DNA of 64,000 bases from Salinivirga cyanobacteriivorans (lineage in GTDB: Bacteria; Bacteroidota; Bacteroidia; Bacteroidales; Salinivirgaceae): assembly GCF_001443605.1 (NCBI RefSeq), contig NZ_CP013118.1:4117001-4181000 (forward strand), read 5' to 3'. The position numbers were made by a program, and so were the translations under genes. The notes below the pieces were generated by a model that worked only from the letters and a program-made list of their open reading frames with translations, was not told the origin of the DNA and did not search any database. Position 1 is the stretch's first letter, and each line of letters begins with the position of its first letter. Below, one piece after another: positions 37,126 to 60,861 of this stretch.

Positions 37126-37198
37126 GTATACTCCACCAACCACTAAAAGCTACGACAATCATTGTGGTAGTGATAATTACCTAAATAATTTGTATTGA

Positions 37199-37215: not shown

Positions 37216-37252
37216 AGCATGATTGTATAATTGTAAAAAAAAATAGACGCCT

Positions 37253-38059: not shown

Positions 38060-38691
38060 AAATAGAAAAACAGCATATACAACAATTCAAGGCTGTACAG
38101 CAATATATACAAACAGCTAAAAGTAAAGCACACAAAGCGGTAAATACTGCACTCATTGACTTATATTGGAATATTGGAGCGTTTGTACACAATAAAATCA
38201 AAACTAGTGAATGGGGAAAGTCGGTGGTGCAGGAACTATCCAATTATATTTCAGAGAACGAACCGGATAGCAAAGGATTTTCCGCGCAAAATATCTGGCG
38301 AATGAAGCAGTTTTACGAAATGTATTACCAAAATGAAAAACTCTCACCACTGGTGAGAGAAATTAGCTGGACTCATAACCTGTTGATTATGAGTAAAACA
38401 ACAAGTGAAGAAGAAAGAGCATTTTATATTCAGCTAACTAAAAAAGAAAACTACAGCAAACGGGAACTGGAACGCCAGATAGACAATGGCATGTATGAGC
38501 GGACTATTTCTGACAAGCAATTTCTCTCAGCACTGCTGAGAGAAATACATCCTAAAGCAGAGAATACTTTCAGAGATAGTTATATGCTTGATTTTCTTAC
38601 GTTACCGAAACACCACTCTGAAAAGGATTTTCAGAAAGCTATTGGAGCAAAAGCTGGACGAGTTTTACCGTCTGGAAGAACCAAGGGTTGA
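38056..38691 (+). CDS. DUF1016 (YhcG-type) N-terminal domain protein; PDDEXK nuclease domain deleted
   Basis: The 211-residue frame matches the DUF1016 N-terminal domain: ALIDLYWNIGAFVHNKI, GFSAQNIWRMKQFYE, REISWTHNLLIMSK and RELERQIDNGMYERT. Full-length relatives have about 340-350 residues with a C-terminal PDDEXK nuclease. Here the text runs to LPKHHSEKDFQKA and then frameshifts. Another frame from 38639 reads LLEQKLDEFYRLEEP to a stop at 38731, which is like the extreme C-terminus of the full protein. The whole catalytic domain is thus missing and the remaining tail is out of frame. The ATGA overlap with cas6 shows it was part of this operon. It may be inert or act as a DNA-binding remnant. 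Confidence 0.8.
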   Translation: MKIEKQHIQQFKAVQQYIQTAKSKAHKAVNTALIDLYWNIGAFVHNKIKTSEWGKSVVQELSNYISENEPDSKGFSAQNIWRMKQFYEMYYQNEKLSPLVREISWTHNLLIMSKTTSEEERAFYIQLTKKENYSKRELERQIDNGMYERTISDKQFLSALLREIHPKAENTFRDSYMLDFLTLPKHHSEKDFQKAIGAKAGRVLPSGRTKG

Positions 38692-38735
38692 ATATGTAAC
38701 TGCGAAATCAAACGAGAATCAAATAATTTAAAAAT

Positions 38736-40139: not shown

Positions 40140-40278
40140 TGAATGGGATGTAAAATATAGTGTGATGAGGAAGATGATTTTAATTTTTTTGAGAAATAGG
40201 TGCGGCCCAAAAGTGGTTCCATCTTTATCTCTAACAGAGTTTATTTTTAAAAAGATATAAAATAATAAAACAGTATAC

Positions 40279-42138: not shown

Positions 42139-42150
42139 AACAATATTATC

Positions 42151-43185
42151 ATGACAACCACACATAACAAAACAAAATTCAACAATAGAGTCTTTGGTGG
42201 AATAGTTGTAAAATCAATCAACTCGAATTACAACGCCGATTTTAGCGGGCAGCCAAGAACATTGCCTGATGGAACTGTTTATGCAACCGACAAAGCACTA
42301 AAATATGCAATTCGTAATTATTGGGATAAAGTACATAACGAAAAAGAAAAAGTATTCTATTTTACTCAATACGATACAAACGGTAATCCAATGACATTGG
42401 ATAGTCTTGTAGAATATCATTTTGATAAATTTCCAACAAAAAAAGTAATAAGGGAAACTGGCTCAGGAAGAAATAAAAAGGATGAAGAAGTTGAAGTCTT
42501 AGACAAAGTTAAATTAAAAACCAAATTATTGGGTTGCATTGATATTAAATGTTTTGGTGCTACTTATGCAGGCAAAACGAATGTTTCAATCCATGGAGCT
42601 GTTCAGATAAATCATGGTGTAAATATCTGGAAAGAAAACAATATTTTCAGTGAACAAATAAAATCACCGGTTGCGACGGATGAAGGGGATGAAATGACAA
42701 CCATTGGACGTAGTACCAAATTACAAGAGGGACATTATTTGCATCATTTTTCGGTAAACCCGATTAACACCGATAACACTTTAACTCCTGATGATATTGC
42801 AAAATTGAAAGAAGCAATGTGTAAAGGAGTTACGTTTTACGACAGTGTAGCTAAAGCTGGAACTGACAATGAATTATTAATTTGGATACAGCTTAAAAAA
42901 GATTCAAAAATTGTTTTGCCAAATGTTTCATCACTTATTACTACCCATAATATTTCGAAAGAAACCAACAAAATAGTTTTCGACCTTTCCGAAGTATCTG
43001 CGTTGGTAAAAAAATATGCAAACAATATTGAACAATACGAAGTATATTATCAAAGCGAAAATGTGGAAATAAAAAATGCGGATATCAAATATGATAAGTC
43101 AGAAGGAAGCGGCAAATTAAATGTTGATACATTTGATTTAAATTGTATTGCTGTTAAGAAAAATCAAGATGAAAATGAAGGATAA
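42151..43185 (+). CDS. cas7: Type I-B Cascade backbone Cas7 (Csh2-like)
   Basis: The 344-residue RAMP-fold protein forms the crRNA-binding filament. The start (NRVFGGIVVKSINSNYNADFSG) and middle (CIDIKCFGATYAG, SIHGAVQINHGVNIW, GRSTKLQEGHYLHHF) match the Cas7/Csh2 family closely. It lies 12 bases after cas8b and its last 17 bases overlap the start of cas5. Confidence 0.94.
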   Translation: MTTTHNKTKFNNRVFGGIVVKSINSNYNADFSGQPRTLPDGTVYATDKALKYAIRNYWDKVHNEKEKVFYFTQYDTNGNPMTLDSLVEYHFDKFPTKKVIRETGSGRNKKDEEVEVLDKVKLKTKLLGCIDIKCFGATYAGKTNVSIHGAVQINHGVNIWKENNIFSEQIKSPVATDEGDEMTTIGRSTKLQEGHYLHHFSVNPINTDNTLTPDDIAKLKEAMCKGVTFYDSVAKAGTDNELLIWIQLKKDSKIVLPNVSSLITTHNISKETNKIVFDLSEVSALVKKYANNIEQYEVYYQSENVEIKNADIKYDKSEGSGKLNVDTFDLNCIAVKKNQDENEG

Positions 43186-43975
43186 AATTATTTCATTTGA
43201 TATACAAGCCGATTTTGGTTTTCTGAAACAACCTGACACAAACGAGCCAATGTATTTAACTTATAATATGATACATAAACCGTTTGTCTTGGGCATGTTT
43301 GGAGCAATTCTCGGCAAAAAAGGTTTTCAAGAAAACAAAAAGTTTCCTGAATACTATAAAGACTTAAAAAAAATTCAGGTGGGAATAAAGCCTCTTGGTT
43401 CTGAAAATGGTAATTTTCAAAAAACTATTATCAAATATAATAATTCAACAGGGGCTGCGAACAAAGGCACTTTCAAAGGTACTAATACTAAAGGGAAAGC
43501 TGTCGAGTTTGAAATAGGAGCAACTTTAAATATTGTTGAACAGACCCTGGTAAAACCATCCTATAGAATCTATTTTTTATCCGACAATGTGGAATTAATT
43601 TCGCGAATAGAAAATAACGAAGCCGTTTATTTACCCTATTTAGGGAAGAATGATTTTTCTCTATGGTGGGATAATGTAAAAAATTACAATTACGAGAATT
43701 TTTATTATGAAAATAGCTATCAAGTAAGTTCAATCTTTGCAAAGAAAACAGCAATAAAAGATGGCAAAGAAATCGAGGAAGAAGTTCCTGCCTGGGAAAT
43801 GGATTTTTCGAAAAAGTGTTTTATGTATTTTGAGCGTTTGCCAGTCGGCTATGATGCTGAATTATACCAATATGTTTATAAACCATTTGTTTATACAACA
43901 TTCAAATTAAAATCGGATTACAAAATAGATAAGCTATTTCATCTTGATAATGGAGAAGTTATTCAACTCTTTTAA
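43169..43975 (+). CDS. cas5: Type I-B Cascade subunit Cas5
   Basis: The 268-residue protein starts at the ATG at 43169 (a TTG at 43148 is upstream), giving MKDKIISFDIQADFGFLKQP, a typical Cas5 opening for the RAMP fold. It caps the 5' handle of the crRNA. The mid-region GMFGAILGKKGFQ and late PVGYDAELYQYVYKPF fit type I-B members. It overlaps cas7 upstream and cas3 downstream, so the Cascade genes are translationally coupled. Confidence 0.92.
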   Translation: MKMKDKIISFDIQADFGFLKQPDTNEPMYLTYNMIHKPFVLGMFGAILGKKGFQENKKFPEYYKDLKKIQVGIKPLGSENGNFQKTIIKYNNSTGAANKGTFKGTNTKGKAVEFEIGATLNIVEQTLVKPSYRIYFLSDNVELISRIENNEAVYLPYLGKNDFSLWWDNVKNYNYENFYYENSYQVSSIFAKKTAIKDGKEIEEEVPAWEMDFSKKCFMYFERLPVGYDAELYQYVYKPFVYTTFKLKSDYKIDKLFHLDNGEVIQLF

Positions 43976-46652
43976 GGAGATATATCAGAATGGAAATCGT
44001 ATCGAGGAAATTCTACCTCGATACGATAATTATTATTCCCATACCCATTTAAGTAAAGAAAAGGAAAAATTGCATGAGCATATTCATGTAGTAATGCACT
44101 ATGCGATGAAGCTAATTGAAGTTCATCAATTAGATATGGTAATAGATAATCTTATAAATGATTGGTTGAAAATCAATCCAAAGATTAATCAAACTAAAAT
44201 TATAGGTGATTTCATAAAAGAATTATTTGTAAACACTATTTCGTATCACGATTATGGAAAAGTAAATGAAAACTTTCAGGTCGAAAAAATGAATAATGAA
44301 AGTTTTTTCGAGCGAAATACCTTAAATAAAATTGGCTCCAAGCATTCAATTTTAAGTGCTTATGTTTATTTAAACACACATTTAAATAGAATAATAAAGT
44401 CGAAAAACTTAGCAGTAGCAGAAAAGAACTTTCTTATTGCAACAGCGTTCTTATTCTCAAATTCAATAACAAAACACCATTCATATTATTTTGAGAATCA
44501 TGTAGATTATACTGAAGAAATAATTGATTCATTAAAAAGTTATCTTCATTTATTTGACGTGGAACTAACAAAAGAGTCCAAATTTATTATATCAGAAAGT
44601 ACGAAAATCTTTACTGAAATAATGATTAAAATTGAAAGTAATGGTAAAAACTATTTTTCAATTTTTGCCCTGCTTAAACTTAATTTTTCATTACTGACTG
44701 CTTCCGATTATTATGCAACTAATGAATTTGCACAAGGAATTAAGATTAAAGATTATGGAATTCTCCTTGAAAAAGACAAGAACAAATTACAGGATAATTT
44801 TATTAATAACAGTAATACTCCTTACAATGGAGATTTAATCAGGAATTTGGATTCGTACAATAAATTAGATTTCGATAAATTATTAGAAATAAGTAATAAC
44901 AATCTTAATCTAATTCGTCAAAAAATAGCAGCAGAAGCCGTATTTACTTTAAAGAATAATCCAGATAGTTTTCTTTATTATATTGAAGCTCCAACAGGTG
45001 GAGGGAAAACTAACATTTCTTTTGCCTGTACACTGGAACTATTGAAAATGGATGATAATTTGAATAAAGTTTTTTATGTATTTCCATTTACAACACTAAT
45101 AAATCAGACGTTTACAAGTATAAAGAAAACATTAAAGCTTGAAAGCAAGAGCATTATTCAATTACATTCAAAAAGTGGATTTCACACAACTGAGCATGAA
45201 AAGAACGAAGATGGAGTATATGGTAATGACAAGTTAAATTACATCAATAACTTATTTATTAACTATCCATTTACATTATTATCACACGTTAAATTTTTTA
45301 ATATCCTAAAAGGAAACGATAAAGAGAACAATTATATATTACATCGGTTAAGTAATTCAATTATTATCATTGATGAGTTGCAAGCGTATACCCCAGAACA
45401 TTGGGATAAAATTATTTTCTTTTTATTTAATTATGCAAAGTACTTCAATATTCGATTTGTCTTAATGTCTGCAACTCTTCCTAAAATTGACAAATTAAAT
45501 AAGGAAGCGAAAGGTATGGTTACTTCATTAATTCCAAATAAAGATAAATATTTTACAAACCGAAATTTTAGAGAACGTATCACATTTGATTTTTCATTAT
45601 TAGGGGATAATGGAACCAAAAAAATTACTTTAGATGAGCTGAGAGATATTGTTTTCAATGAATTAGAAAAATATTGTTCAACAAATAATGATTCAAATGG
45701 ATTAGTTGAATTTATTATTAAAAAATCGGCATCACGCTTTTATACAAATATTTGTAACGATGAAAGGTTTAATGATTACCAGAAATTTATAATATCAGGA
45801 ACAATACTTGAACCAAGACGTCAAGAAATTATCACAGCATTAAAAGAAAAGAAATATAAAGGGCAAGCTTTTAAAAAATCGATTGTGATTACAACTCAAG
45901 TTATTGAAGCCGGAGTTGACATTGATATGGATATAGGATTTAAAGACCGCTCCATAGTTGATAGCGATGAACAGTTAGCTGGCAGAATAAACAGAAATGC
46001 CAAGAAAAGAAACTGTAAAGTATTTATTTTCAATTACGATAAAGAATATTTGATATACGGAAAAGACAATCGCTATCAACAAAAATTACCATTTGGTGAT
46101 TATAAAAATATTTTAGAAAGTAAAAACTTCGATATTTTATATGACAGAGTAAACAGTAATATAGAATCTAAGAATAAAAGCGACCTGATTATTAACATTA
46201 ATGACTATTGGGATTATTTCAAACAAATCCATTTCAAAGGAATCAATGATAGTTTCAAATTAATCGACGCTGATACCACTTCTGTATTTGTACCATTAAG
46301 TATTGATTGTAAATGGTTTTCTGAATCAGAAATTGATTTCATCTCAAATTTTCAAATATCTATCTATAATTCAATTAACGGGAACGATGTTTTTGAGATT
46401 TATAAAAATATTGTTTTGGGAAATAGCAACTTTATTGAAAAAGAAATAGATAAAAAACAGATAAGTGGGATAATGTCGAAATTTACATTTTCCATATATA
46501 CGAATTCGAATATGACAAAAGAACTAATGGAGTACTCCGATTATGAAATATATCAACAGTTTGGAATAATATTTTTAACTCATTTTAAAGAAATATATTC
46601 TTTAGAAGATGGCATCCATGATGAAAAATTTAAAGAAGCTGTATTTTTATAA
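43950..46652 (+). CDS. cas3: CRISPR helicase-nuclease Cas3 (HD + DExD/H)
   Basis: The protein has about 900 residues. The N-terminal HD nuclease has HEHIHVVMHYAMKL, the SYHDYGKVN motif and KHSILSAYVYL. The superfamily 2 helicase follows: Walker A APTGGGKTN near residue 345, the DEXH-like IIIDELQAYTPEHW, motif III MSATLP and motif VI DEQLAGRINRNAKK. The order and size fit a full-length Cas3 that degrades DNA bound by Cascade. No frameshift or truncation was found, so interference capacity appears intact. The start is the ATG at 43950, inside cas5. Confidence 0.95.
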   Translation: MEKLFNSFKEIYQNGNRIEEILPRYDNYYSHTHLSKEKEKLHEHIHVVMHYAMKLIEVHQLDMVIDNLINDWLKINPKINQTKIIGDFIKELFVNTISYHDYGKVNENFQVEKMNNESFFERNTLNKIGSKHSILSAYVYLNTHLNRIIKSKNLAVAEKNFLIATAFLFSNSITKHHSYYFENHVDYTEEIIDSLKSYLHLFDVELTKESKFIISESTKIFTEIMIKIESNGKNYFSIFALLKLNFSLLTASDYYATNEFAQGIKIKDYGILLEKDKNKLQDNFINNSNTPYNGDLIRNLDSYNKLDFDKLLEISNNNLNLIRQKIAAEAVFTLKNNPDSFLYYIEAPTGGGKTNISFACTLELLKMDDNLNKVFYVFPFTTLINQTFTSIKKTLKLESKSIIQLHSKSGFHTTEHEKNEDGVYGNDKLNYINNLFINYPFTLLSHVKFFNILKGNDKENNYILHRLSNSIIIIDELQAYTPEHWDKIIFFLFNYAKYFNIRFVLMSATLPKIDKLNKEAKGMVTSLIPNKDKYFTNRNFRERITFDFSLLGDNGTKKITLDELRDIVFNELEKYCSTNNDSNGLVEFIIKKSASRFYTNICNDERFNDYQKFIISGTILEPRRQEIITALKEKKYKGQAFKKSIVITTQVIEAGVDIDMDIGFKDRSIVDSDEQLAGRINRNAKKRNCKVFIFNYDKEYLIYGKDNRYQQKLPFGDYKNILESKNFDILYDRVNSNIESKNKSDLIININDYWDYFKQIHFKGINDSFKLIDADTTSVFVPLSIDCKWFSESEIDFISNFQISIYNSINGNDVFEIYKNIVLGNSNFIEKEIDKKQISGIMSKFTFSIYTNSNMTKELMEYSDYEIYQQFGIIFLTHFKEIYSLEDGIHDEKFKEAVFL

Positions 46653-46707
46653 TTATGAACCCAATGAAAATCTGATTAATACAAAAATAAACCCATGACC
46701 TTTTATT

Positions 46708-46728
46708 AACCAAAACCACATTTTGGTT
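46708..46728 (+). repeat. Inverted repeat downstream of cas3
   Basis: AACCAAAA and TTTTGGTT flank a 5-base loop, 55 bases after the cas3 stop. No T-run follows, so it could only be a weak terminator or an mRNA-stabilising hairpin. The rest of 46653-46859 shows no further structure. Confidence 0.4.
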
Positions 46729-46859
46729 ATGGTTAGCAACTTATAAGGTTATTCAAAAAAACATCAACCATTGTCAGTGTGAAATTATAAAATTTACAAA
46801 ACGGCGATAACCAATAATAGAATGCAACCAAAACAAACAAGATAATATCGGCACAAACG

Positions 46860-48278
46860 ATGAGTTCAAAACAGAAAAAGAGCGATTATAAAGCCAGGAA
46901 GCATAAAGAAAAAGCTAAAGCACAGCAGGAAAAGAAGCGGCTTAAAGCACTTCCAAAAGCGCTACGGAAATTAGAAGCTGAACTTAACCAACATGTCGAG
47001 TTTCTGAAAATATACGATGGCTATATTGGCGACTTTACAGGTGAAATCATCCCTGTTGAGCCGGTGAAAAATCCGTTTGATGTGTTAAACCAAATGGAAC
47101 TGAACCTCCAACACCCCAACGCACTTAATGCAGACATGTTAAAGCAACACATCCTCGCTATTGATGATGCTTTTAGTAAGATGGGATTTTTCATAAACCC
47201 CATTTCTAAAACCGAAGATATGCATGCGGATGTCTATGAATTGCTGTATTTCTTCATAAATAATCCGCCAAAAGAAAATTTCGACAGACAAGCTGAACTT
47301 ACGTATAAAAATAATTCGATCATCATAGAAAGAGACGATTCTGACGATTCGTTCTATGACAGTTCCGAACTCGCTAATCAAAAAAAGAAAATTCAGCCGT
47401 ACATCAATCAGCTTGTCGAAGATTTGGGAAAAGTGGCTCAAAACCCACCTAAACCTACTTATTTCGAAACGCCTCCACACTTTGAGGAATTGCCCCACAT
47501 AGCTGAACTTTCCCTAACCCCATACAAAACCATTGAAGAACTAACGGGCATAAAGCAAATGGTTTTTCCCGAAATGACCGACCTTTTTGCCGATCAGTGC
47601 CAACAGGTGAACGATGCTATTTTTAAGGTTTTCGAAGGGTTAAATATTGAGCTGATTGATGTCCCGGAAGATATTCCACCCGAGTGGCTCTACGAAGTGC
47701 TTTCTACCAATTGGAAACACTACGTGCAGCATTTACCCGAATCCGGCATGGATCTGGAACTGTGCACCGGCGACCCAATAACCTGTCCTTATGGTAATTA
47801 TTGCACCTGTGGCGACGATTGGGATACCTACGAGCTACCCGATAAGTTTGATTTGCCACTGATAGAGCGGATAATTGAGATCATTGAAAAGGACCAATTT
47901 TGCTACCTAAATCCGGATACGTTGGAAATTGAATCTATTCCACAAAAAACGGTGAACCAGCCCTCAAAAGAAGGATTTAAACACGAAAATTGGGAAGAAT
48001 GTTACGTTTTTAAACCCTTCAGCAAGAAGGAGAAACTGGAAATTATGATCCATTTCTCGACAAACAACAAAGACGAAAGCCTTTCGGAAGAACTGTTTTG
48101 TGCATTGGAAAGCAAGGAGCCAATACAAAATTTTGGTGAATTAATAAACACTTCAAATCAAAGAAATATTTGGTATAACTATTACATAGAGAGCCTAAAA
48201 GACCGCATTCGTCATAGTATTTACCAGGAACTACAAAAGAAAATAGAACCGCTCGACGAAAGCCAATTACCTTTTTGA
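46860..48278 (+). CDS. UPF0158-domain protein with basic N-terminal helix
   Basis: The 472-residue protein starts with a Lys/Ala-rich helix (KARKHKEKAKAQQEKKRLKAL), probably a nucleic-acid or coiled-coil segment. A central part contains a four-Cys cluster (LCTGDPITCPYGNYCTCGDD), reminiscent of a zinc knuckle. The C-terminal 140 residues match UPF0158 (CYLNPDTLEIESI, VFKPFSKKEKLEIMIHF, NQRNIWYNYYIESLKDRIRH). The function of UPF0158 is unknown. It lies between cas3 and the adaptation genes on the same strand, so it is either a passenger or an accessory gene. Confidence 0.65.
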   Translation: MSSKQKKSDYKARKHKEKAKAQQEKKRLKALPKALRKLEAELNQHVEFLKIYDGYIGDFTGEIIPVEPVKNPFDVLNQMELNLQHPNALNADMLKQHILAIDDAFSKMGFFINPISKTEDMHADVYELLYFFINNPPKENFDRQAELTYKNNSIIIERDDSDDSFYDSSELANQKKKIQPYINQLVEDLGKVAQNPPKPTYFETPPHFEELPHIAELSLTPYKTIEELTGIKQMVFPEMTDLFADQCQQVNDAIFKVFEGLNIELIDVPEDIPPEWLYEVLSTNWKHYVQHLPESGMDLELCTGDPITCPYGNYCTCGDDWDTYELPDKFDLPLIERIIEIIEKDQFCYLNPDTLEIESIPQKTVNQPSKEGFKHENWEECYVFKPFSKKEKLEIMIHFSTNNKDESLSEELFCALESKEPIQNFGELINTSNQRNIWYNYYIESLKDRIRHSIYQELQKKIEPLDESQLPF

Positions 48279-48338
48279 GCTAGAAATAAGAAAATGTAAA
48301 ACAAACTCAGACTATAAGAAATAAATTATGAATCCATT

Positions 48339-48488
48339 ATCAATCTCCATCAATCTCTTTCAATCTTGTATCAAACCCATCAATCTCTCATCAATCTCCA
48401 TCAATCTCTTTCAATCTTGTATCAAACCCATCAATCTCTCATCAATCTCCATCAATCTCTTTCAATCTTCCATCAAACCCATCAATCT
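48339..48488 (+). repeat. Three-copy 51-bp tandem repeat built of TCAATCT motifs
   Basis: Copies lie at 48339-48389, 48390-48440 and 48441-48488 (last slightly shortened and changed). Each unit holds four to five TCAATCT-like heptamers separated by about three bases. It occupies the whole gap between the UPF0158 gene and the first cas4 remnant. Related motifs recur around cas1 and cas2. Confidence 0.9.
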
Positions 48489-48497
48489 AACTAAACC

Positions 48498-48746
48498 ATG
48501 CAAATAACCGGCACACACTTTAATTATTACCTGATTTGCCACCGAAAATTGTGGTTATTTGCCCATCATGTACAGATGGAACCGACCAGCGATGCCTTTG
48601 CGGAAGGCCGATTTATACACGAAACCACCTACTTGCAACGAAACAGTAATTTTTGGGAATTGGAAATTGTCGAAATTGAAAAGATGAAAGAACACATTGA
48701 GCAAATAATTCATTATACAAAAAAAAAATCGAGAATAGCTTTGTAA
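48498..48746 (+). pseudogene. cas4: cas4 remnant, copy 1 (internal deletion)
   Basis: The 82-residue frame keeps the Cas4 N-terminus (THFNYYLICHRKLWLFAHH, FAEGRFIHETTYL), including the first iron-sulphur Cys. It then jumps from FWELEI directly to VEIEKMKEHIEQII, which corresponds to a point about 75 residues later in the second copy. The catalytic Asp and Glu-x-Lys segment is lost and the three C-terminal cysteines are missing. Nucleotide divergence from copy 2 (roughly four of five bases shared by eye) argues against a very recent duplication. Confidence 0.82.
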
Positions 48747-48778
48747 AGGCGAAATGATGGTTTCAAGCGGGAAAACAA

Positions 48779-48809
48779 TTGCCCATGATATAATTATAAG
48801 CTATATTTA
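48779..48809 (+). promoter_or_regulatory. Possible abiE promoter with an AT palindrome
   Basis: TTG at 48779-48781 and TATATTTA at 48802-48809 approximate the -33/-7 consensus with 20 bases between. The palindrome TATAATTATA (48789-48798) lies between them and is a candidate AbiEi binding site. The sequence is very AT-rich, so chance is possible. Confidence 0.35.
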
Positions 48810-48838
48810 CGTTTTTGCACAAAATAAACAATAATTTT

Positions 48839-49603
48839 ATGACAAATTTGCAAGCCCAATTTCTAAAAATGCTGGATGAATACGGTTACGATATTTTTAA
48901 CCTGGATATGGTCAGAGATACCGGTAGGTTCTCTAATGCACAAATTTCACAAGCTTTGCGTAGCCTGACAAATTCCGGCATTATTAATAAATTGGAAAGG
49001 GGAAAATTTGTGAAAGACGGCTTCAGCGATGAATTTGTTATCGGAAACTTTCTGGCACCCGACGGAGGTATAGCATATTGGTCGGCACTTAATGCCCACG
49101 GACTTACCGAGCAATTTCCAAATGTTGTATATGTACAGACATCACGCAGAGCCGGTGAGTTTACGCATCAAAATTTACGTTATAAATTCATTAAAGTAAA
49201 TGCAAGCAAAGTAACAGGTTATGTGAAAAATGGTTATGGTAATCATATTTACCAGATTACTGATGTGGAGAAAACCATTGTCGATTGTTTTGATTTGCCA
49301 CATCATGCAGGTTGGTACCCTGAAATTATTAAGGCTTTTAACCGTGCAAAGATTAATGCAAAGAAACTGGTAAAATCTTGTAAAGCGATTGATAATCTAT
49401 CTGTTACAAAGCGACTTGGATACCTGAGTGAGGCACTTAATAAAACCGGAATGGAATTTTTTATTGATTATGCCCAAAGTATACTGGGAAATGAATACTC
49501 ACTTTTTGAAATAGATGGTAAATCAAACGGCAATTATCATTCGCGCTGGAAACTAATTATTAATATGCCTGAAAAAGAAATATTAGAAATGGCCAATTCA
49601 TAG
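48839..49603 (+). CDS. abiEi: AbiEi-family antitoxin / transcriptional regulator
   Basis: The 254-residue protein starts at the ATG at 48839. An N-terminal winged-helix (FSNAQISQALRSLTNSGIINKLERGKFV) is followed by the AbiEi body with IAYWSALNAHGLTEQFPNVVYV, the TDVEKTIVDCFDLP block and a C-terminal domain. It neutralises the AbiEii toxin and represses the operon in characterised systems. The toxin gene starts four bases after its stop. The pair lies between two damaged cas4 genes. Confidence 0.88.
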   Translation: MTNLQAQFLKMLDEYGYDIFNLDMVRDTGRFSNAQISQALRSLTNSGIINKLERGKFVKDGFSDEFVIGNFLAPDGGIAYWSALNAHGLTEQFPNVVYVQTSRRAGEFTHQNLRYKFIKVNASKVTGYVKNGYGNHIYQITDVEKTIVDCFDLPHHAGWYPEIIKAFNRAKINAKKLVKSCKAIDNLSVTKRLGYLSEALNKTGMEFFIDYAQSILGNEYSLFEIDGKSNGNYHSRWKLIINMPEKEILEMANS

Positions 49604-49607
49604 CTTC

Positions 49608-50459
49608 ATGAGACAAACAGAATTAATAAACATAGCCACCGAAAAAAAAGTTAGCGTCACCACAATTGATAAGGATTGGGTTTTGGGCCATTTCTTAAAT
49701 GCGCTATATGCTCAAAAGGAAGTTCAGGAGAACTTTGTGTTTAAAGGTGGCACATGTTTGCGAAAATGCTATTTTGAAGATTACCGATTTTCTGAAGATC
49801 TTGATTTTACATTACTCGATAAAGAATTTAACGTCGACAACAAATTCTTACAATCAATAATTGAATACGCCGAAATAATGAGTGGTGCTAAGTTCCATAT
49901 TGACAAAATTAAACCCCAGCAGTCTGCCAATGAAGATCAAGGATATGAAATAAAAATCAAATATTGGGGAGCCAACCATAAACCGAATCAAAAACCCTTG
50001 CCAAAATCACGCTGGCTCACTTCAATAAAATTGGATATCAGTTTCTCAGAAAAGATTTTCTCCACACCTATTGAAAAAAAGATCATTCATAATTATTCTG
50101 ATTATCAGAAAATTAGTAGCGCTGTTGTGTCTTATGACCTGAAAGAGTTAATAGCTGAAAAATTACGATCCTTAATACAACGAAACAGACCCAGAGATAT
50201 TTATGATATTTGGTATTTGCAATCAATTATTGACCCTGCCGAATACTCCGAAATTCATCATCTTTTGAGGGAAAAAGCAAAAATTAAAAGCATTGACATT
50301 AATAATGCAAATGACTTTGTTAATCCTGATAAACAAAAAGCCAATAACCGTGCCTGGCAGAGTAGTCTGGGAAATCATTTACCCATAGAGCAATTGCCGG
50401 ATTTCGAGTCTGCTTATGCTAAATTGAAACCTTTTGTTACACAAATTTTAAACACATAG
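49608..50459 (+). CDS. abiEii: AbiEii-family nucleotidyltransferase toxin
   Basis: The 283-residue protein has the nucleotidyltransferase signature VFKGGTCLRKCYF followed by FSEDLDFTLLD (DxD-type metal ligands), then SIKLDISFSE with a third acidic residue and YDLKELIAEKLRSLIQRNRPRDIYDI, a hallmark of AbiEii. The type IV toxin modifies tRNA or another NTP-accepting target and causes growth arrest or abortive infection. All catalytic motifs look intact. It probably stabilises this stretch of the CRISPR island and may add phage defence. Confidence 0.92.
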   Translation: MRQTELINIATEKKVSVTTIDKDWVLGHFLNALYAQKEVQENFVFKGGTCLRKCYFEDYRFSEDLDFTLLDKEFNVDNKFLQSIIEYAEIMSGAKFHIDKIKPQQSANEDQGYEIKIKYWGANHKPNQKPLPKSRWLTSIKLDISFSEKIFSTPIEKKIIHNYSDYQKISSAVVSYDLKELIAEKLRSLIQRNRPRDIYDIWYLQSIIDPAEYSEIHHLLREKAKIKSIDINNANDFVNPDKQKANNRAWQSSLGNHLPIEQLPDFESAYAKLKPFVTQILNT

Positions 50460-50463
50460 CTCA

Positions 50464-50977
50464 TGTACATCACCGGCACACATTTTAATATTACCTGATC
50501 TGTCATCGCAAATTGTGGCTATTTGCGCACCATGTGCAAATGGAACCCACCAGCGACACCGTAGCGGAAGGACGGCTAATTCATGAAACCACCTATTTGC
50601 AGAGAAACAGCAATTTCAGGGAATTGGAAATTGGCGGAATTAAAATTGATTATTTCGACCATCAGAATAAGGTGATTCATGAGGTGAAAAAATCGGCCAA
50701 ACTGGAAGATGCGCATGTGTGGCAATTGAAATATTACATCTACGTGATAGAAAAGGCAGGATTAGAGGGCGTTACAGGTATTCTGGAATATCCTAAACAG
50801 CGGCAAAAAGAGGAAATTTTGCTGAGCGAGCGCGATATTATCGAAATTGAAAAAATGTGTGAACACATTGATCAAATAATTAATCATGATACCTGTCCGG
50901 ATGTTATTAATATGCCTTTTTGTAAAAGATGTGCCTATTATGATTTTTGTTATGTCGGCGAAAGTGAAACCCTTTAG
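50464..50977 (+). pseudogene. cas4: cas4, copy 2, with 1-base deletion near the start
   Basis: From ATG 50464 the frame reads MYITGTHFN and then meets a stop at 50497-50499. Comparison with copy 1 shows one missing T in the AATTATTAC context. Downstream the gene is complete: EVKKSAKLEDAHVWQLKYYI carries the catalytic Glu-x-Lys, IDYFDHQ the Asp, and the C-terminal cluster CPDVINMPFCKRCAYYDFC the last three Fe-S cysteines. The only open start in frame is TTG at 50513, which would drop the first cysteine (LICHRK). It is therefore either inactive or rescued by frameshifting, or the deletion is a sequencing error. Cas4 sets PAM choice during spacer acquisition. Confidence 0.78.
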
Positions 50978-51021
50978 TAGGTTACAAAAAGTAACTTGCT
51001 TTTAGTAACCTGAGAAAAGCA

Positions 51022-52032
51022 ATGCGTATGAAAAAGAATTACTATTTATTTAATCCCGGGCGCATGTCGCGCAAAGACAATACATTGAAATTTGAACCTG
51101 TTACGGAAGACGGTAAATTTCAGAAGCCTCGTTATTTGCCGGTTGAACAGGTAGATCAGTTGTTTTGTTTTGGATCTGTGGATGCGAATTCGGCTGTCTA
51201 TAATTTTCTGGGAAAAAATGATATTTCAGTTCATTTTTTCGATTATTATGAAAATTACACAGGAAGTTTTCAACCCAAGCGGAAATTACTGGCAGGAGCC
51301 GTGCAAATAGCACAAGTAAAAACGTACCTTTCCGAAGAGGAGCGGATATCGTTGGCACAACAATTCATAGAAGGAGCAGCACATAATATTTTACGCAATC
51401 TCAAATATTATAATACGCGGGGCAAAGATGCGACCCCGTTTATTGAAAAAATAGAAGGACTTCGTAAGCAAGTTTCACAAAGCAAAAATATAAGAGAATT
51501 AATGGGCATAGAAGGAAATATACGTATGACCTATTATGATGCATTTCCACTTATTGTGAACGATTTTAATATGAATGGACGCACTATGCAACCACCGCAG
51601 GACGAAGTGAATTCACTCATTTCGTTTGGAAATATGCTGTGTTATGCAGAATGCTTACGTTCCATACATCAAACCCAACTCGATCCAACCATAAGTTTTT
51701 TGCACGAACCCGGATATCGCCGGTATTCACTGGCTTTGGATTTAGCAGAAATATTTAAACCTGTGCTGGTCGACCGGCTTATTTTCAAGGTACTCAATAA
51801 AAAAATTGTTCAAAAAAACGACTTCGATACTGATTTGAATCGCATAGTCTTAAAAGAAAAAGGAAGAAAAGCATTTATTTCCGGTTGGGAAGAACGTATG
51901 GGGCAAACTATTATGCACAGAAGCCTGAAACGCGAAGTAAGCTACAAACATCTGATAAAACTGGAGTGTTACAAAATTGTAAAAGATTTGATGAAATTGG
52001 ATAATTACAAACCTTTTAAAGCCTGGTGGTAG
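51022..52032 (+). CDS. cas1: CRISPR integrase Cas1
   Basis: The 336-residue integrase inserts new spacers next to the leader together with Cas2. Metal ligands E164 (MGIEGNIR), H228 (SFLHEPGYR) and E243 (LDLAEIFKP) are present, as is the SFGNMLCYAECLRSI helix. The length is standard for type I-B. It lies 44 bases after the cas4 stop; the gap contains a small inverted repeat (GTTAC-AAAAA-GTAAC at 50981-50995). The gene is full-length. Confidence 0.95.
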   Translation: MRMKKNYYLFNPGRMSRKDNTLKFEPVTEDGKFQKPRYLPVEQVDQLFCFGSVDANSAVYNFLGKNDISVHFFDYYENYTGSFQPKRKLLAGAVQIAQVKTYLSEEERISLAQQFIEGAAHNILRNLKYYNTRGKDATPFIEKIEGLRKQVSQSKNIRELMGIEGNIRMTYYDAFPLIVNDFNMNGRTMQPPQDEVNSLISFGNMLCYAECLRSIHQTQLDPTISFLHEPGYRRYSLALDLAEIFKPVLVDRLIFKVLNKKIVQKNDFDTDLNRIVLKEKGRKAFISGWEERMGQTIMHRSLKREVSYKHLIKLECYKIVKDLMKLDNYKPFKAWW

Positions 52033-52115
52033 ATTAGTGGGAGATTGAAGTGAGATTGATGGGAGATTGGTGGTAGATTGAAGGGAGATTGATAGGAGAT
52101 TGGTGGGAGATTTGA
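52033..52115 (+). repeat. AGATTG-type tandem repeat between cas1 and the four-helix gene
   Basis: Eight or so copies of (G)AGATTGA/G are spaced 9-11 bases apart with GTGG/TGGG linkers. This is the reverse complement of the TCAATCT motif found at 48339-48488. It occupies nearly the whole 112-base gap. Confidence 0.85.
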
Positions 52116-52144
52116 TTTATATTAATTTTAAGTAAATAGTCATT

Positions 52145-52522
52145 ATGAAGGAATTATCAAATTGGGTTCAATATAAAATAGGAACCAGGGATCGGTTGAA
52201 GGTTTTTGCTTTAACCATTCTTGAAATTTCAGAGGTATTACCGAAATCGACCAGGGCAAATGTTATTAATTACCAGCTGACGAAATCCGGAACATCGATA
52301 TATGCAAATTATAGAGCAGCATTACGAGGAAGATCGAAAAAAGAATTTTATAGTAAGTTGTGCATTGCAGTTGAGGAAGCAGATGAGACAGAAATGTGGC
52401 TTGAATTGTTGCTGAGTGCTAATATTTCAAATAAAGACATAGTGAAAGATGCCCATAAAAATAGTATCGAAATTGTTAAAGTATTGGCAAATATGAGGAA
52501 GAGAATGGAAGGTAAAGATTGA
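52145..52522 (+). CDS. Four-helix-bundle protein (23S rRNA intervening-sequence / Avd-like family)
   Basis: The 125-residue protein belongs to the S23/four-helix-bundle family. Typical blocks are LPKSTRANVINYQLTKSGTSIYANYRAALRG, EFYSKLCIAVEEADETEMWLELL and the final VKVLANMRKRM. Relatives form pentameric barrels and bind nucleic acid; Avd acts in diversity-generating retroelements. No reverse transcriptase or variable repeat is found nearby. The position between cas1 and cas2, framed by repeat islands, is unusual. Its stop codon lies inside the first AGATTGA unit. Confidence 0.85.
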   Translation: MKELSNWVQYKIGTRDRLKVFALTILEISEVLPKSTRANVINYQLTKSGTSIYANYRAALRGRSKKEFYSKLCIAVEEADETEMWLELLLSANISNKDIVKDAHKNSIEIVKVLANMRKRMEGKD

Positions 52523-52735
52523 TGGGGAGATTGATGGGAGATTTATGGTAGATTGGTGGTAGATTGGTGGTAGATTGGTGGTAGATTGGTGCTAGATTGA
52601 AGATTGCAGAGTTCAATCTTCTTCAATCTTCTTCAATCTTCTTCAATCTTCTTCAATCTTCTTCAATCTTCTTCAATCTTCTTCAATCTTCTTCAATCTC
52701 AATCAATCTAAAATCAATCTTAATCAAATCTATAC
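52516..52735 (+). repeat. Two opposed repeat tracts (AGATTGG then CTTCAATCTT) before cas2
   Basis: AGATTGR units run from 52516 to about 52608. After GTTCAATCTT at 52611, seven perfect CTTCAATCTT decamers run from 52621 to 52690, then degenerate TCAATC units to about 52735. The two tracts are mutually complementary, so an RNA or single-stranded DNA could fold into a long imperfect hairpin. They fill the gap between the four-helix gene and cas2. Confidence 0.9.
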
Positions 52736-52765
52736 TAACTTTATTTTACAAAAAAAAACAGGAAT

Positions 52766-53029
52766 ATGTACATAATAGCCGTCTACGATGTAGGACAAAA
52801 ACGAGTTGGAAAAATGCTTAAGCTGTGCCGCAGATATTTAAATTGGATACAAAACTCTGTATTTGAGGGTGAAATTACAGAAGTTAAGTTCAAGCAATTA
52901 AAATATGAAGCAAGGAGCATTATGGACGAGGAAGAAGATAGCTTTATTATTTTTAGTTCGCGCGATGAAAAGTGGTTAGAAAAAGAGATTGTAGGAAAAG
53001 AGCGGGGTTCAATTGATAATTTTTTATAA
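52766..53029 (+). CDS. cas2: CRISPR adaptation protein Cas2
   Basis: The 87-residue ferredoxin-fold protein starts MYIIAVYDV with the conserved Asp8, and contains RRYLNWIQNSVFEGE, the classical Cas2 helix-strand. It bridges two Cas1 dimers in the integration complex. It is the last cas gene, 223 bases from the first repeat. Confidence 0.95.
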   Translation: MYIIAVYDVGQKRVGKMLKLCRRYLNWIQNSVFEGEITEVKFKQLKYEARSIMDEEEDSFIIFSSRDEKWLEKEIVGKERGSIDNFL

Positions 53030-53252
53030 ATGTCGTCGAAGTTGATGTTTCAGAAAGGAAGGTAAAAAATCGGAAGATACACAATTAGACGAAATGCTCT
53101 TTGAAATCTTGATAATCATAATATTAACAATTATCGTCGTTATGCTGTTGTTACCATGCAATTAACCATCGACGACAAAAAACGAAGCTACATAAGCGTA
53201 AACGGTTTTGTTATGCCAATAAAACCGTTTATTTTTACACAAAGGCAAACGC
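53030..53252 (+). promoter_or_regulatory. CRISPR leader with hairpin and candidate pre-crRNA promoter
   Basis: The leader lies between cas2 and the first repeat. AAACGGTTTT (53200-53209) and AAAACCGTTT (53221-53230) form a perfect 10-bp stem with an 11-base loop. TTTG at 53207-53210 and TATTTTTA at 53230-53237 are 19 bases apart and match the -33/-7 promoter consensus except for the last G, placing a start about 10 bases before repeat 1. The hairpin overlaps these promoter elements. Confidence 0.6.
53094..53165 (+). CDS. Possible 23-residue hydrophobic peptide in the CRISPR leader
   Basis: The ATG at 53094 opens a frame for MLFEIL followed by a run of Ile/Val/Leu to a TAA at 53163. It could encode a single membrane helix. 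The reading frame is open upstream for about 14 further codons without an ATG, so it may be the tail of an older gene. Confidence 0.2.
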   Translation: MLFEILIIIILTIIVVMLLLPCN

Positions 53253-56200
53253 CTTCCAACCGCACCAAAATGGAATTGAAATCGTAATTCCCATCTGGGG
53301 TTAGGGTAAATGTACCCCCTTCCAACCGCACCAAAATGGAATTGAAATGAGGGTAAAATTGTTGATAATTCAACAATGCAATTACTTCCAACCGCACCAA
53401 AATGGAATTGAAATAACCGCCTGATTAACTCAGATTTTAATTCGCTGCCCTTCCAACCGCACCAAAATGGAATTGAAATTTGAGTATGCCTGACAAGGCG
53501 GACTTGCGTGTATCGCTTCCAACCGCACCAAAATGGAATTGAAATTCGTTGCAGCTTCCTTTGTTGTCGCTTCCTTTGTTGCTTCCAACCGCACCAAAAT
53601 GGAATTGAAATTTCCAACAAACTTTTGAAGGATTATTACTAATACCCTTCCAACCGCACCAAAATGGAATTGAAATAAAGCAATATTTCGGCTTAACTTA
53701 GCCCTCACACCACTTCCAACCGCACCAAAATGGAATTGAAATTAATTTCCAACCAATCCTCCAGTGCATAATGAATTTCTTCCAACCGCACCAAAATGGA
53801 ATTGAAATCTCGTACGCCAAGTGCTACTAATTACAATCTTCGCACTTCCAACCGCACCAAAATGGAATTGAAATACGAAAATTAAGTATAGCCCTGAAAA
53901 AAATAGGTTACTTCCAACCGCACCAAAATGGAATTGAAATATAACCCGTCCTTGTACTTCAGTAGTAGTTCTACAGCTTCCAACCGCACCAAAATGGAAT
54001 TGAAATAAAACAACGTGTGCCAACATCACATAAATGTTCATTCTTCCAACCGCACCAAAATGGAATTGAAATCTTTTTCTTTATCGGATACGCTATATAA
54101 TTCAGGCCCTTCCAACCGCACCAAAATGGAATTGAAATGTCAATATCTTCCATCTTGTAAGAATTATTTACATGCTTCCAACCGCACCAAAATGGAATTG
54201 AAATCTCATACGCCAAGTGCTGCTAATTACAATCTTCGCACTTCCAACCGCACCAAAATGGAATTGAAATTATTTTTTGGAAAATGTATCTTCAAAAGAA
54301 ATTAAACTTCCAACCGCACCAAAATGGAATTGAAATATCCTTGTCGCCCTCAGTGAATCTGGTTGCCTTATGCTTCCAACCGCACCAAAATGGAATTGAA
54401 ATTTTTTACCCCTACTTGTAATTACAGGATTTTCAATGCTTCCAACCGCACCAAAATGGAATTGAAATTCCATCGAGAGCTGGGCTTTCATGGCATCTGA
54501 CATCCTTCCAACCGCACCAAAATGGAATTGAAATTGCCTCAACTTTTTTGCCTGAACATGTTTGTGTAAACTTCCAACCGCACCAAAATGGAATTGAAAT
54601 ACGATAACACCTATGGGGCGCCTGGCATCATTAACCACTTCCAACCGCACCAAAATGGAATTGAAATCTGCTACTTGCAGATGCAAAGCCCATAAATGAC
54701 CGACTTCCAACCGCACCAAAATGGAATTGAAATGTAATCAATAGAGAACCTAAATTATATGATTTAATTACTTCCAACCGCACCAAAATGGAATTGAAAT
54801 ATAAACGGGCATGTAGTAAGAGTCCCTGGTTATGGCTCTTCCAACCGCACCAAAATGGAATTGAAATAAAGTATGGCAAGATGGTGAATGCTGGATTATG
54901 GGACTTCCAACCGCACCAAAATGGAATTGAAATTGAGCAGGAACCAGGCAGCGGGGGAAAGCAATCCGCCTTCCAACCGCACCAAAATGGAATTGAAATA
55001 TTATGACTTTTACCACATTTTCAAGAAATGCTTCTCTTCCAACCGCACCAAAATGGAATTGAAATGTATTTTTGCACGACGTTCAGCTGGTATATATCTA
55101 CCCTTCCAACCGCACCAAAATGGAATTGAAATATTAGCTTTATATTCAAGCATTGTGTAAAATGCACCCTTCCAACCGCACCAAAATGGAATTGAAATCT
55201 GGAACGCCGAAGTATCTGGCAGGTGAAAGATAGTCTTCCAACCGCACCAAAATGGAATTGAAATTTCAAAACTCCCTCCAGCTTGTTCTAACAATTCACA
55301 CTTCCAACCGCACCAAAATGGAATTGAAATTTTTTACCCCTACTTGTAATTACAGGATTTTCAATGCTTCCAACCGCACCAAAATGGAATTGAAATACAT
55401 TACATAAATGTTCATTGCCGTTTTCGTCTTTACTTCCAACCGCACCAAAATGGAATTGAAATATCAATTCAGCATATTTAGCAAAATTTTCTCGTGTTCT
55501 TCCAACCGCACCAAAATGGAATTGAAATTGTGTACTCTATTAAATCAACGTATTCCTTCCCAGCCTTCCAACCGCACCAAAATGGAATTGAAATCGTTAT
55601 GCGAACTTTATTCATCTCTTTTTTTTCACCCTTCCAACCGCACCAAAATGGAATTGAAATAACAGTTGGACAGGAATTCCGCACACTATCATCATTCTTC
55701 CAACCGCACCAAAATGGAATTGAAATATTTCATTTGTAACTGAATAAAAACAAAGTATATGGGCTTCCAACCGCACCAAAATGGAATTGAAATTACTGAT
55801 AGGTTGTGTTAGTAAACAACATGTCATCCCTTCCAACCGCACCAAAATGGAATTGAAATCCGCTTGCAGGACTAACAACTGTACCATCATCAAATCTTCC
55901 AACCGCACCAAAATGGAATTGAAATACTCAAAAAACGGAGAAAATGTGGAAATAACTGAAACTTCCAACCGCACCAAAATGGAATTGAAATGATATTAAT
56001 AATTTGAAATCATTACCCGATTTGCGGCTTCCAACCGCACCAAAATGGAATTGAAATCAATATGATTCGATGGGGCGATTGGCTAAATGCAGCCTTCCAA
56101 CCGCACCAAAATGGAATTGAAATTAATTAATCCTTTTTATATATTAATTTTGAACTCGACTTCCAACCGCACCAAAATGGAATTGAAATGGCAAATTTCC

Positions 56201-59200
56201 ACCTGTTAAGCCTATAAGGGATTGGCTTCCAACCGCACCAAAATGGAATTGAAATAACATTGTTGTCCGCTGTACTTATCCAGTTTTCATTCTTCCAACC
56301 GCACCAAAATGGAATTGAAATTTAAGAGATTTTATACGAACGGAATTTACTTCTGTTCCTTCCAACCGCACCAAAATGGAATTGAAATAATGGGAGGAGC
56401 GTTGAGCATCACCCTCGCAGGAATGCTTCCAACCGCACCAAAATGGAATTGAAATTTCTGCAACGGCACAATAGCAACCACTTTTTGAAACCTTCCAACC
56501 GCACCAAAATGGAATTGAAATACTGTCTCAATGTTTTTTTTCAGGTCTATATATGAACTTCCAACCGCACCAAAATGGAATTGAAATATTTTTAATCTCA
56601 AAACGACCATAGCGAGGGCGGTAACTTCCAACCGCACCAAACTGGAATTGAAATATTTATCCCGTACCCAATCCCGTATAGGCTTAACACTTCCAACCGC
56701 ACCAAAATGGAATTGAAATCTCGAAAAGTATGAGGCTTATTGTGATTTGAAGTTTTCTTCCAACCGCACCAAAATGGAATTGAAATACTTTAAGGGTAGC
56801 GAGGAAGGACAGAACAAATTGACTTCCAACCGCACCAAAATGGAATTGAAATAAAACACAACCGAAACAAAAAGAGAAAAGCAAAAAACTTCCAACCGCA
56901 CCAAAATGGAATTGAAATCTTGCTCTTTAATTGCCTCATCCTTATCAATTCCAGCTTCCAACCGCACCAAAATGGAATTGAAATTACTTGGAAGTCCGTA
57001 TAATAATTGTGCCTTTTATTCTTCCAACCGCACCAAAATGGAATTGAAATGGATTATCTTTGCCGACTGGAACCCGGATGCTGAATCTTCCAACCGCACC
57101 AAAATGGAATTGAAATACGTTTCTGCTTCCTTCGTTGTCGCTTCCTAAGTTGCTTCCAACCGCACCAAAATGGAATTGAAATTCGGCAACAGAAATTTTA
57201 CGTCCGTCCTGCAATTCCTTCCAACCGCACCAAAATGGAATTGAAATTCTTTGGATAATCGGTTAAGCCAAGGCAGATCTGGTTCTTCCAACCGCACCAA
57301 AATGGAATTGAAATACTTGTACGGCTGCAAGTGATGATTATAGCAGTGGCTCTTCCAACCGCACCAAAATGGAATTGAAATTCGGGTGAGTGGGCTTTGG
57401 GTGATGTTAAAGTATTTACTTCCAACCGCACCAAAATGGAATTGAAATCAAGTAACCGCGATGGGGGGTACGTATCATGGCACTCTTCCAACCGCACCAA
57501 AATGGAATTGAAATAGGTATGGTTATTAGATGAGTGTCATAAGTTATCTACTTCCAACCGCACCAAAATGGAATTGAAATACCTATACAGTACCAATTAC
57601 TAATCATTAAACTAAACTTCCAACCGCACCAAAATGGAATTGAAATTACTTTGAGTAAAAGTTAAAGTAGTATCTACTCCTGCTTCCAACCGCACCAAAA
57701 TGGAATTGAAATACCTGAGAGCTTTGAGTCGCCCAGCTTTGTAGTATCCTTCCAACCGCACCAAAATGGAATTGAAATATTACAGACCCGACAAATGGTT
57801 TTTTGTACATTGTTCTTCCAACCGCACCAAAATGGAATTGAAATAAAATACGGAATCTCAAAAAAACAGTGGCTAAAAAACTTCCAACCGCACCAAAATG
57901 GAATTGAAATAACCTAAACGCCTGTATGTTTTGGCATCATTAGCATACTTCCAACCGCACCAAAATGGAATTGAAATACAAGAAATGGCGGGTCGAACAT
58001 TATCACATTCATACTTCCAACCGCACCAAAATGGAATTGAAATTTGACAAATGCAATTTTAGAGAATATTGATATTGAACTTCCAACCGCACCAAACTGG
58101 AATTGAAATCCCATACTTCAATATAAATATTCTGTCCTTCTTGTCCTTCCAACCGCACCAAACTGGAATTGAAATAGCACTTGAAAAGCGTTCATCCCCT
58201 TGAGCTGCACACTTCCAACCGCACCAAAATGGAATTGAAATGGCTTCCCGCATGAACGCCTTCAACCATCATAACCCTTCCAACCGCACCAAAATGGAAT
58301 TGAAATGCATTAACCGATTTCATGTATCTGCTGGCTGGTGATCTTCCAACCGCACCAAAATGGAATTGAAATAATAATTTTGCAAATAATTTCATAATTA
58401 ATTAATTTCTTCCAACCGCACCAAAATGGAATTGAAATCTATATAACCATATTCAGTACGCCCTAACAATGAGCCTTCCAACCGCACCAAAATGGAATTG
58501 AAATAGTACGTCTTAGTAAATTGCGCAAGAAGGGTGCGCAGCTTCCAACCGCACCAAAATGGAATTGAAATAACAAGTCCGCTAGGGCTTGTAATGTCAC
58601 ATTATAACTTCCAACCGCACCAAAATGGAATTGAAATCTGAGTAAAGGCAAGGCTAGCTTATTGAGACATGATTCTTCCAACCGCACCAAAATGGAATTG
58701 AAATTAACAACTATGAACTCTATGTTTCGTGGATGTACGCTTCCAACCGCACCAAAATGGAATTGAAATGATCTAATGTTAAATTCATTGAGTGCGTCAA
58801 ATCGGCTTCCAACCGCACCAAAATGGAATTGAAATATCGGATTAATTTTTCATCTGTCATGACCCTTTGGTCTTCCAACCGCACCAAAATGGAATTGAAA
58901 TTTTAATGAAAGAAAACAATTTATTGGCACGGATTGACTTCCAACCGCACCAAAATGGAATTGAAATCGGAAACTTTGGCGGTGCGGTTTTTAATGTTGT
59001 GTTCTTCCAACCGCACCAAAATGGAATTGAAATAACTTGAAACACGGAACCTGAAACCTGAAACATGGACTTCCAACCGCACCAAAATGGAATTGAAATA
59101 ACATTGATGGTGGACAACTTGCAGACATGATTGCACTTCCAACCGCACCAAAATGGAATTGAAATATCCAATCATAATTGACCCAACCAACATTGTGTTT

Positions 59201-59356
59201 GCTTCCAACCGCACCAAAATGGAATTGAAATGACCAAAGGGATGCAACAACAATTTCATTTAATGCACTTCCAACCGCACCAAAATGGAATTGAAATAAT
59301 TTTAGATGAATTGCAACTTTCCCCCCCCCGTCGCTTCCAACCGCACCAAAATGGAA
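53253..59356 (+). CRISPR. CRISPR array, leader-proximal part (92 full repeats and the left part of a split one)
   Basis: The 30-bp repeat (first at 53253-53282) starts CTTCCAACCGCACC and ends with the 8-base handle ATTGAAAT. Spacers are 35-37 bp, period about 66 bp. My hand count gives 92 complete repeats plus a 23-base left part at 59334-59356. Three repeats, starting at 56625, 58080 and 58146, carry the same A-to-C change at position 18; all others that I checked are uniform. Transcription is expected left to right from the leader, giving crRNAs of type I-B form. Two exact spacer duplications and several near matches exist. Confidence 0.98.
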
Positions 59357-60853: not shown

Positions 60854-60861
60854 AAATGGAA
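60854..60861. repeat. Right copy of the 8-bp target-site duplication
   Basis: AAATGGAA here is identical to 59349-59356 on the left of the insertion sequence. Confidence 0.92.

Follow-up and report, generated by a model that had tools for sequence, protein, structure and literature searches.

What is an intact toxin-antitoxin (TA) pair doing between two damaged copies of cas4? The question is raised by a type I-B CRISPR (clustered regularly interspaced short palindromic repeats) locus in the single-contig 4.81 Mb genome of Salinivirga cyanobacteriivorans (assembly GCF_001443605.1, contig NZ_CP013118.1). The stretch analysed, hereafter the window, comprises 64,000 nucleotides (positions 4,117,001 to 4,181,000 of the contig), and its nearest relatives by cas4 are Bacteroidales. 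On balance, the pair is probably a type IV AbiE cassette of a lineage resident in type I-B cas operons of this order, joined to its present neighbour by recombination and read through from its own promoter into the cas genes downstream. The features in question are as follows (positions are those of the window).

48498-48746, + strand: left cas4 remnant, 82 amino acids
48779-48838, + strand: putative abiE promoter/operator
48839-49603, + strand: abiEi, antitoxin and predicted DNA-binding repressor (PADLOC, Pfam)
49608-50459, + strand: abiEii, nucleotidyltransferase toxin by family (Pfam, PADLOC, alignment)
50463-50977, + strand: right cas4, frame broken in the assembled sequence

The AbiE pair and the cas4 copies beside it

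Both abiE frames are open and on the same strand, with abiEi first and 4 bp between the genes. AbiEi matched the PADLOC AbiEi model at 2.5e-76 and Pfam AbiEi_1 at 0.0017, the latter under the cut-off. AbiEii matched Pfam AbiEii (PF08843) at 7.3e-40, over the cut-off, and PADLOC AbiEii at 1.9e-85; alignment showed that its nucleotidyltransferase motifs FKGGTCLRKCYFEDYRFSEDLDF and EKLRSLIQRNRPRDIYDIWYL are intact and match those of relatives. ATG 48839 is a more likely start of abiEi than TTG 48815.

The left cas4 is recognizable by Pfam Cas_Cas4 (4.7e-15) and PADLOC Cas4b (3.1e-24). It keeps the N-terminus (~56 residues) and the first Cys; ~200 bp of the nuclease core are missing in frame, and the gene terminates ahead of the C-terminal Cys cluster, which is therefore gone. 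The ATG of the right copy, at 50463, lies 3 nt past the abiEii stop codon and encodes MYITGTHFNIT, with a stop after 11 codons. Relative to the left copy one T is missing at ~50488 (AATTATTACC to AATATTACC), which breaks the frame after 9 codons in the assembled sequence. The rest of the frame corresponds to a complete Cas4 (Pfam 1.7e-47) whose first ATG, GTG or TTG is TTG 50513, past the first Cys. A programmed frameshift was rejected, since no XXXYYYZ slippery heptamer is present at the site and the single missing T accounts for the break. An earlier note, made from the letters alone, had described an intact type IV TA pair between clearly divergent cas4 copies, of which the left had lost its core and the right a single base. 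Each of these observations was borne out, although the right gene starts at 50463 and not at 50513.

An error of sequencing or assembly would leave the right cas4 intact in the living cell and the left copy as the sole remnant. We regard this as a serious possibility rather than a probability. The remainder of the right copy is full length and conserved, the genome has no further Cas4 (these two are the only cas4 matches in its 4.81 Mb), and the array repeats are near-perfect with spacers uniformly 35-37 bp up to the cas2-proximal end. However, the deletion falls in a TT pair and not in a long homopolymer, and further cargo of the locus is damaged too (the truncated DUF1016 gene).

Over 55 codons the two copies differ at 30 bases, distributed 7/0/23 over codon positions 1/2/3. 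Nei-Gojobori (NG86) estimates of nonsynonymous and synonymous divergence were dN 0.05 and dS 2.9, of which the latter is saturated and means only "large". At the protein level 50/55 N-terminal residues are identical (91%), against 40/55 for the next relative (<=73%); the copies are thus mutual nearest known relatives and yet synonymously saturated. Because synonymous sites are saturated while the protein is conserved, both copies worked long after they separated, under purifying selection, and were damaged later.

How did two cas4 genes come to flank the pair? None of the 60 other cas4 loci examined has two cas4 genes, and in genome G018 abiE lies directly upstream of a single intact cas4; the unusual element in the window is thus the second cas4. 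The operon is a mosaic. GC content is 0.27-0.32 in the cas8-7-5-3 block (0.23-0.28 at third codon positions, GC3), versus ~0.40 nearby, and the cas3 tree places the window as sister to a Saprospiraceae locus (support 100/100). In cas4, cas1 and the cargo gene hyp472, GC is 0.37-0.40, nearer the genome value; for cas4 and cas1 the closest matches come from the same order, and the cas1 tree does not fix the placement of the window. Because of the single cas4 at all 60 other loci, the abiE-cas4 junction in G018 and the mosaic operon, we favour recombination between two related I-B loci over an old duplication in place, and infer the joining step itself from the mosaic. Such recombination would have brought an abiE-cas4 junction beside the resident cas4. 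The resident (left) copy would then have lost its core and end and the incoming (right) copy one base, with the TA pair remaining intact. The earlier note had offered recombination or TA capture; recombination is the better reading, and capture as a one-off event falls away, since the AbiE clade was already resident in cas operons.

An old tandem duplication within the operon lineage, with both copies long functional, AbiE slipping between them later and both then decaying, would fit two genes that are each other's closest relatives (91% amino acid identity versus <=73% for others) and have the same GC3 (0.41-0.42). We consider it rather unlikely, given that doubled cas4 was absent from the other loci and that abiE directly before a lone cas4 already exists in G018. 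Had abiE simply inserted into one cas4 and duplicated its target, partial copies would lie on both sides of the pair, as they do, but a target duplication begins identical and each copy here starts where cas4 starts; the codon divergence rules this out for practical purposes, and the earlier note's rejection of a simple insertion is upheld by the saturation under purifying selection and the mosaic operon.

AbiE in cas operons of Bacteroidales

The window AbiEii was used as query against 393 genomes of the order, with a threshold of E<=1e-40. Matches were found in 17 genomes, and 13 of these 17 are located in type I-B cas operons or in what is left of such operons; the genomes are a sample, many are fragmented, and the 13 loci share operon history and are hence partly non-independent. 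In nine cases AbiEii lies inside an I-B cas operon in a genome that also has cas4 (the window, G018, G021, G090, G184, G236, G268, G320 and G346), the abiE of G021 being in a separate I-B operon on the same contig. In G022 abiE occupies the cas7|cas5 junction of a cut contig, in G149 it follows cas3, and in G203 and G253 it adjoins cas remnants. No cas gene was seen near AbiEii in G027, G042, G272 and G331, and AbiEii matches from outside the order (39-43% identity) had no cas genes nearby.

In a tree of 30 AbiEii proteins, a clade with support 98/94 unites 12 cas-linked rows, the window among them, with G272 (12/13), whereas no row of its sister clade is cas-linked (0/13). The cas-linkage label requires 3 changes on the tree, versus a mean of 10 after shuffling, and none of 500 shuffles was as low. 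A single clade of all cas-linked AbiEii proteins was not recovered, since G022 branches outside; with the 12 others constrained to group to the exclusion of G272, an approximately unbiased (AU) test returned p 0.097. The placement of G022 makes at least one further entry into cas operons likely. L039, a Microscillaceae contig with abiE-cas4-cas1-cas2 (broken frames, low-coverage assembly), groups weakly with non-cas rows. Because G022 lies outside the clade and L039 groups in this way, AbiE probably entered cas operons more than once; branch order within the cas-linked clade is not fixed by the tree and we claim no number of moves. Clade members occur at both the cas7|cas5 and the cas3|cas4 junction, and in differing I-B variants (HMARI-like, TNEAP-like and a third Cas8b/Cas7b set). 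Therefore, this distribution is not readily explained by a single ancient insertion passed on together with a single type of operon.

Two loci show what remains of the pair when cas genes are lost. In G203, whose genome has no cas1, an intact abiE pair is flanked by 42 residues of a cas7 tail and 31 residues of a cas5 head. Its abiE region is 82% identical to that of G184 over 1807 bp, and dN/dS between the two is ~0.1 for both abiEi and abiEii, part of which may predate the loss of cas. In G253 an abiEii lies at a contig end, and after it come cargo, a relative of hyp472 and 40-62 residues from the head of a cas4. Damage in the window is of the same kind but milder, with both cas4 copies broken and the TA whole. 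Since AbiE survived the loss of cas genes, the remnants suggest a TA that guards and keeps itself, not the operon. The earlier note had proposed that the pair may make loss of the island lethal. That proposal is weakened by a pair that outlives the cas genes in G203 and an abiEii that persists beside a cas4 fragment in G253, and it narrows to a possible cost of losing the TA. The note's other suggestion was that the pair may act as a second layer of defence upon failure of Cascade.

Junctions, promoter and proposed function

All abiE insertions are co-directional with the cas genes. From the abiEii stop codon to the next cas start there are 3 nt in the window (TAG CTC ATG), 3-7 nt in G090, G184, G320, G022 and G021, and 27 nt in G018; in G268 the two genes overlap by ATGA. 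What follows abiEii in G346 and G236, at a distance of ~110 nt, is other cargo. AbiE loci outside cas operons mostly have wider junctions or none of this type; L159 is among the exceptions.

On the 5′ side, the insertions leave space for a promoter. The −7 motif of Bacteroidetes promoters has the consensus TAnnTTTG. Within 120 bp upstream of abiEi, TANNTTTG was found at 11/18 loci, versus 2.06 expected in resampled sequence. The putative promoter in the window consists of TTG (48779-48781), 20 bp, and TATATTTA (48802-48809), after which comes a stretch that is conserved at other abiE loci; the upstream segment could be aligned with those of G272, the G203 remnant and two copies inside operons. 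Looser patterns, found by eye, were ACCTTT...AAAGGT (L093, L108, L146 and L152) and AACCC...GGGTT (L101, L151, L155 and L156); neither is present in the window copy.

AbiEii proteins are growth-arresting nucleotidyltransferase toxins, and AbiEi is both antitoxin and repressor. The position of the pair and the tight junctions suggest read-through from the abiE promoter into the cas genes, and the window pair is likely a TA that regulates itself, with a promoter that drives the cas genes downstream as well. AbiEi would repress its own promoter, and one transcript would continue into cas4-cas1-(insert)-cas2; at the cas7|cas5 junction it would read into cas5-cas3-cas4-cas1-cas2. A fall in AbiEi, for example upon infection, could then let AbiEii slow growth or abort the infection and at the same time increase transcription of the adaptation genes downstream. 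Selection would act to maintain the TA and need not extend to its neighbours. In its strongest form, the proposal is that a dedicated CRISPR-resident AbiE lineage of Bacteroidales controls, through AbiEi and its promoter, the cas genes downstream (adaptation genes at cas3|cas4, effector and adaptation genes at cas7|cas5), with abortive infection and CRISPR expression tied to a single switch. We put this forward tentatively.

Several points weigh against the favoured account. The window box TATATTTA is one base off TAnnTTTG. No exact inverted repeat of >=7 bp was found upstream of abiEi in the window copy, with only scattered hits; the cas4 frameshift and the absence of a perfect inverted-repeat operator weaken the case for coupling at this locus. 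G272, a member of the cas-linked clade, has no cas gene in view, on a contig that ends 86 bp past abiEii. As to the joining of the two cas4 copies, an intact sister locus was not found (two genomes of the same genus have no cas1), and an old duplication in place would also explain their divergence.

Neutral hitchhiking would require no regulatory or protective link at all: defence genes cluster, cas junctions tolerate inserts, and AbiE would simply be one of them. Other cargo does lie between cas genes (PDDEXK_3, four-helix-bundle, SWIM and AAA proteins, hyp472), and AbiE survives without cas. However, one AbiEii clade is nearly all cas-linked while its sister is not, and the insertions are all co-directional and mostly <=8 nt from the next cas gene. 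Hitchhiking is possible, but we doubt it. A guard resembling CreTA, in which Cascade represses the toxin through a crRNA-like RNA and loss of Cascade frees it, is very improbable. Guards of this kind are known in type I CRISPR loci (PMC12737573, PMC10097628); however, the AbiE antitoxin is a protein, and AbiE persists without cas genes in G203. A search for a CreA-like repeat in 37001-53230 gave as its best CRISPR-repeat-like sequence one with 11 mismatches, the same as in shuffles, and no spacer shares >10 nt with the abiE promoter region; this candidate was rejected for lack of a repeat-like element and of a spacer match to the abiE promoter.

Operon layout and comparison with known systems

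On the + strand the type I-B operon runs cas6, a truncated DUF1016 gene, hyp467, cas8b, cas7, cas5, cas3, hyp472 and the left cas4 remnant, and then abiEi, abiEii, the second cas4, cas1, a four-helix-bundle gene, cas2 and the CRISPR array. The I-B gene set is present (PADLOC Cas8b/7b/5b/3b/1b/2b, Pfam Cas6 and Cas1, and the array), with both cas4 copies damaged. The Rfam and tRNA scans returned no matches. The remaining features are listed below.

40279-46652, + strand: AT-rich cas8-cas7-cas5-cas3 block (PADLOC Cas8b 5.6e-70, Cas5b, Cas7b; GC3 0.23-0.28), probably a foreign effector module
43950-46652, + strand: cas3 (PADLOC Cas3b 9.8e-236), which closes this effector block
46860-48278, + strand: hyp472, cargo gene without Pfam or NCBIfam match
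48338-48488, no strand: short-unit tandem array (TRF) with a 51-bp higher-order unit in CAATCT orientation, directly 5′ of the left cas4
51022-52032, + strand: cas1 (Pfam 1.4e-91; PADLOC Cas1b 1.8e-159)
52027-52740, + strand: cas1/cas2 insert with a 23S rRNA IVP gene (52145-52522) and short tandem arrays (Pfam, TRF, folding)
52766-53029, + strand: cas2 (PADLOC Cas2b 2.9e-44)
53253-64000, + strand: CRISPR array with 139 repeats in the window, extending to its end; 3 repeats are off consensus, and spacers are 35-37 bp

Neither hyp472 nor hyp467 (38736-40139) has a significant Pfam or NCBIfam match; relatives of hyp472 adjoin cas4 in >10 other cas operons (tblastn). The array between hyp472 and the left cas4 holds three copies of the 51-bp unit, built of CAATCT decamers. 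In the DUF1016/YhcG gene after cas6 (38056-38691) the N-terminal domain is complete and the PDDEXK domain is cut after ~31/157 positions. The CRISPR array is interrupted between two repeats by a 1606-bp interval (59298-60903) that holds an IS256-family transposase (59452-60618), and resumes on both sides.

The gene in the cas1/cas2 insert encodes a 23S_rRNA_IVP four-helix-bundle protein (Pfam 7.2e-15). The insert is bounded by AGATTG arrays of ~11-bp units (52027-52112 and 52516-52600) and an array of TTCAATCTTC in opposite orientation (52612-52720). It is predicted to fold into a long stem with the gene in the loop (z -3.3, 20 shuffles), reminiscent of 23S rRNA intervening sequences. Within the genome, the AGATTG array pattern is confined to this cas locus. 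Other four-helix-bundle genes are likewise flanked by 7-11 bp tandem arrays, both at cas4|cas1 or cas1|cas2 junctions (L079, L083, L086, L092, L100 and L034) and elsewhere in the genome that contains the window (L068, L069, L071 and L073). Inside and outside cas operons these arrays are often inverted, and their unit differs by place; the genes have the appearance of a class of insert with arms made of short repeats. PDDEXK_3 genes between cas4 and cas1 (L078, L036 and L035) adjoin 9-bp AATCCTGTA/AATCATGTA arrays, a unit family unlike that of the four-helix-bundle inserts.

AbiEii matches PDB 6y56, which we take to be the structure of MenT3 (of MenAT, the AbiE relatives of M. tuberculosis). 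The match is weak and covers the KGGT...RFSxDLDF motif; overall similarity is too low to transfer a tRNA target to the window protein.

TA modules near CRISPR loci (PMC10910872, PMC12737573) and the biology of AbiE (PMC3985639, PMC7319586, PMC7725324) are both known. We found no description of AbiE inside cas operons in the open-access papers searched; subscription papers and supplementary tables lay outside this search, and prior mention is possible. Innate immunity by abortive infection and adaptive immunity by CRISPR are usually treated as neighbours in a defence island. An AbiE lineage built into cas operons at particular junctions, and tightly joined to the next gene, makes a regulatory link between them directly testable, and the remnant loci serve as natural experiments on the guard idea.

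Type IV AbiE systems combine AbiEi, a two-domain antitoxin-repressor, with AbiEii, a DUF1814 nucleotidyltransferase (PMC3985639, PMC7319586), and autoregulation by AbiEi through inverted repeats in the promoter is established in other AbiE systems (PMC7319586). The window pair resembles them in its antitoxin-first bicistron, its match to both families, its intact toxin motifs and its own promoter-like upstream region; unlike them, it is embedded in a cas operon, is joined to cas4 and comes from a clade that is cas-linked almost without exception. With CreTA (PMC12737573, PMC10097628) it shares a position within a type I cas locus; however, it is a protein pair, with no crRNA-like antitoxin RNA found and no sign of control of the toxin by Cascade. 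A large-scale clustering study lists CRISPR-associated TA modules, located close to cas genes, that "could safeguard cas genes" (PMC10910872), and AbiE is absent from its main text. In contrast to those modules, AbiE is linked to cas at the level of a clade, and in remnant loci the TA has outlived the cas genes. The two known ties between TA systems and CRISPR, RNA guards and array adjacency, would not separate this clade from ordinary AbiE.

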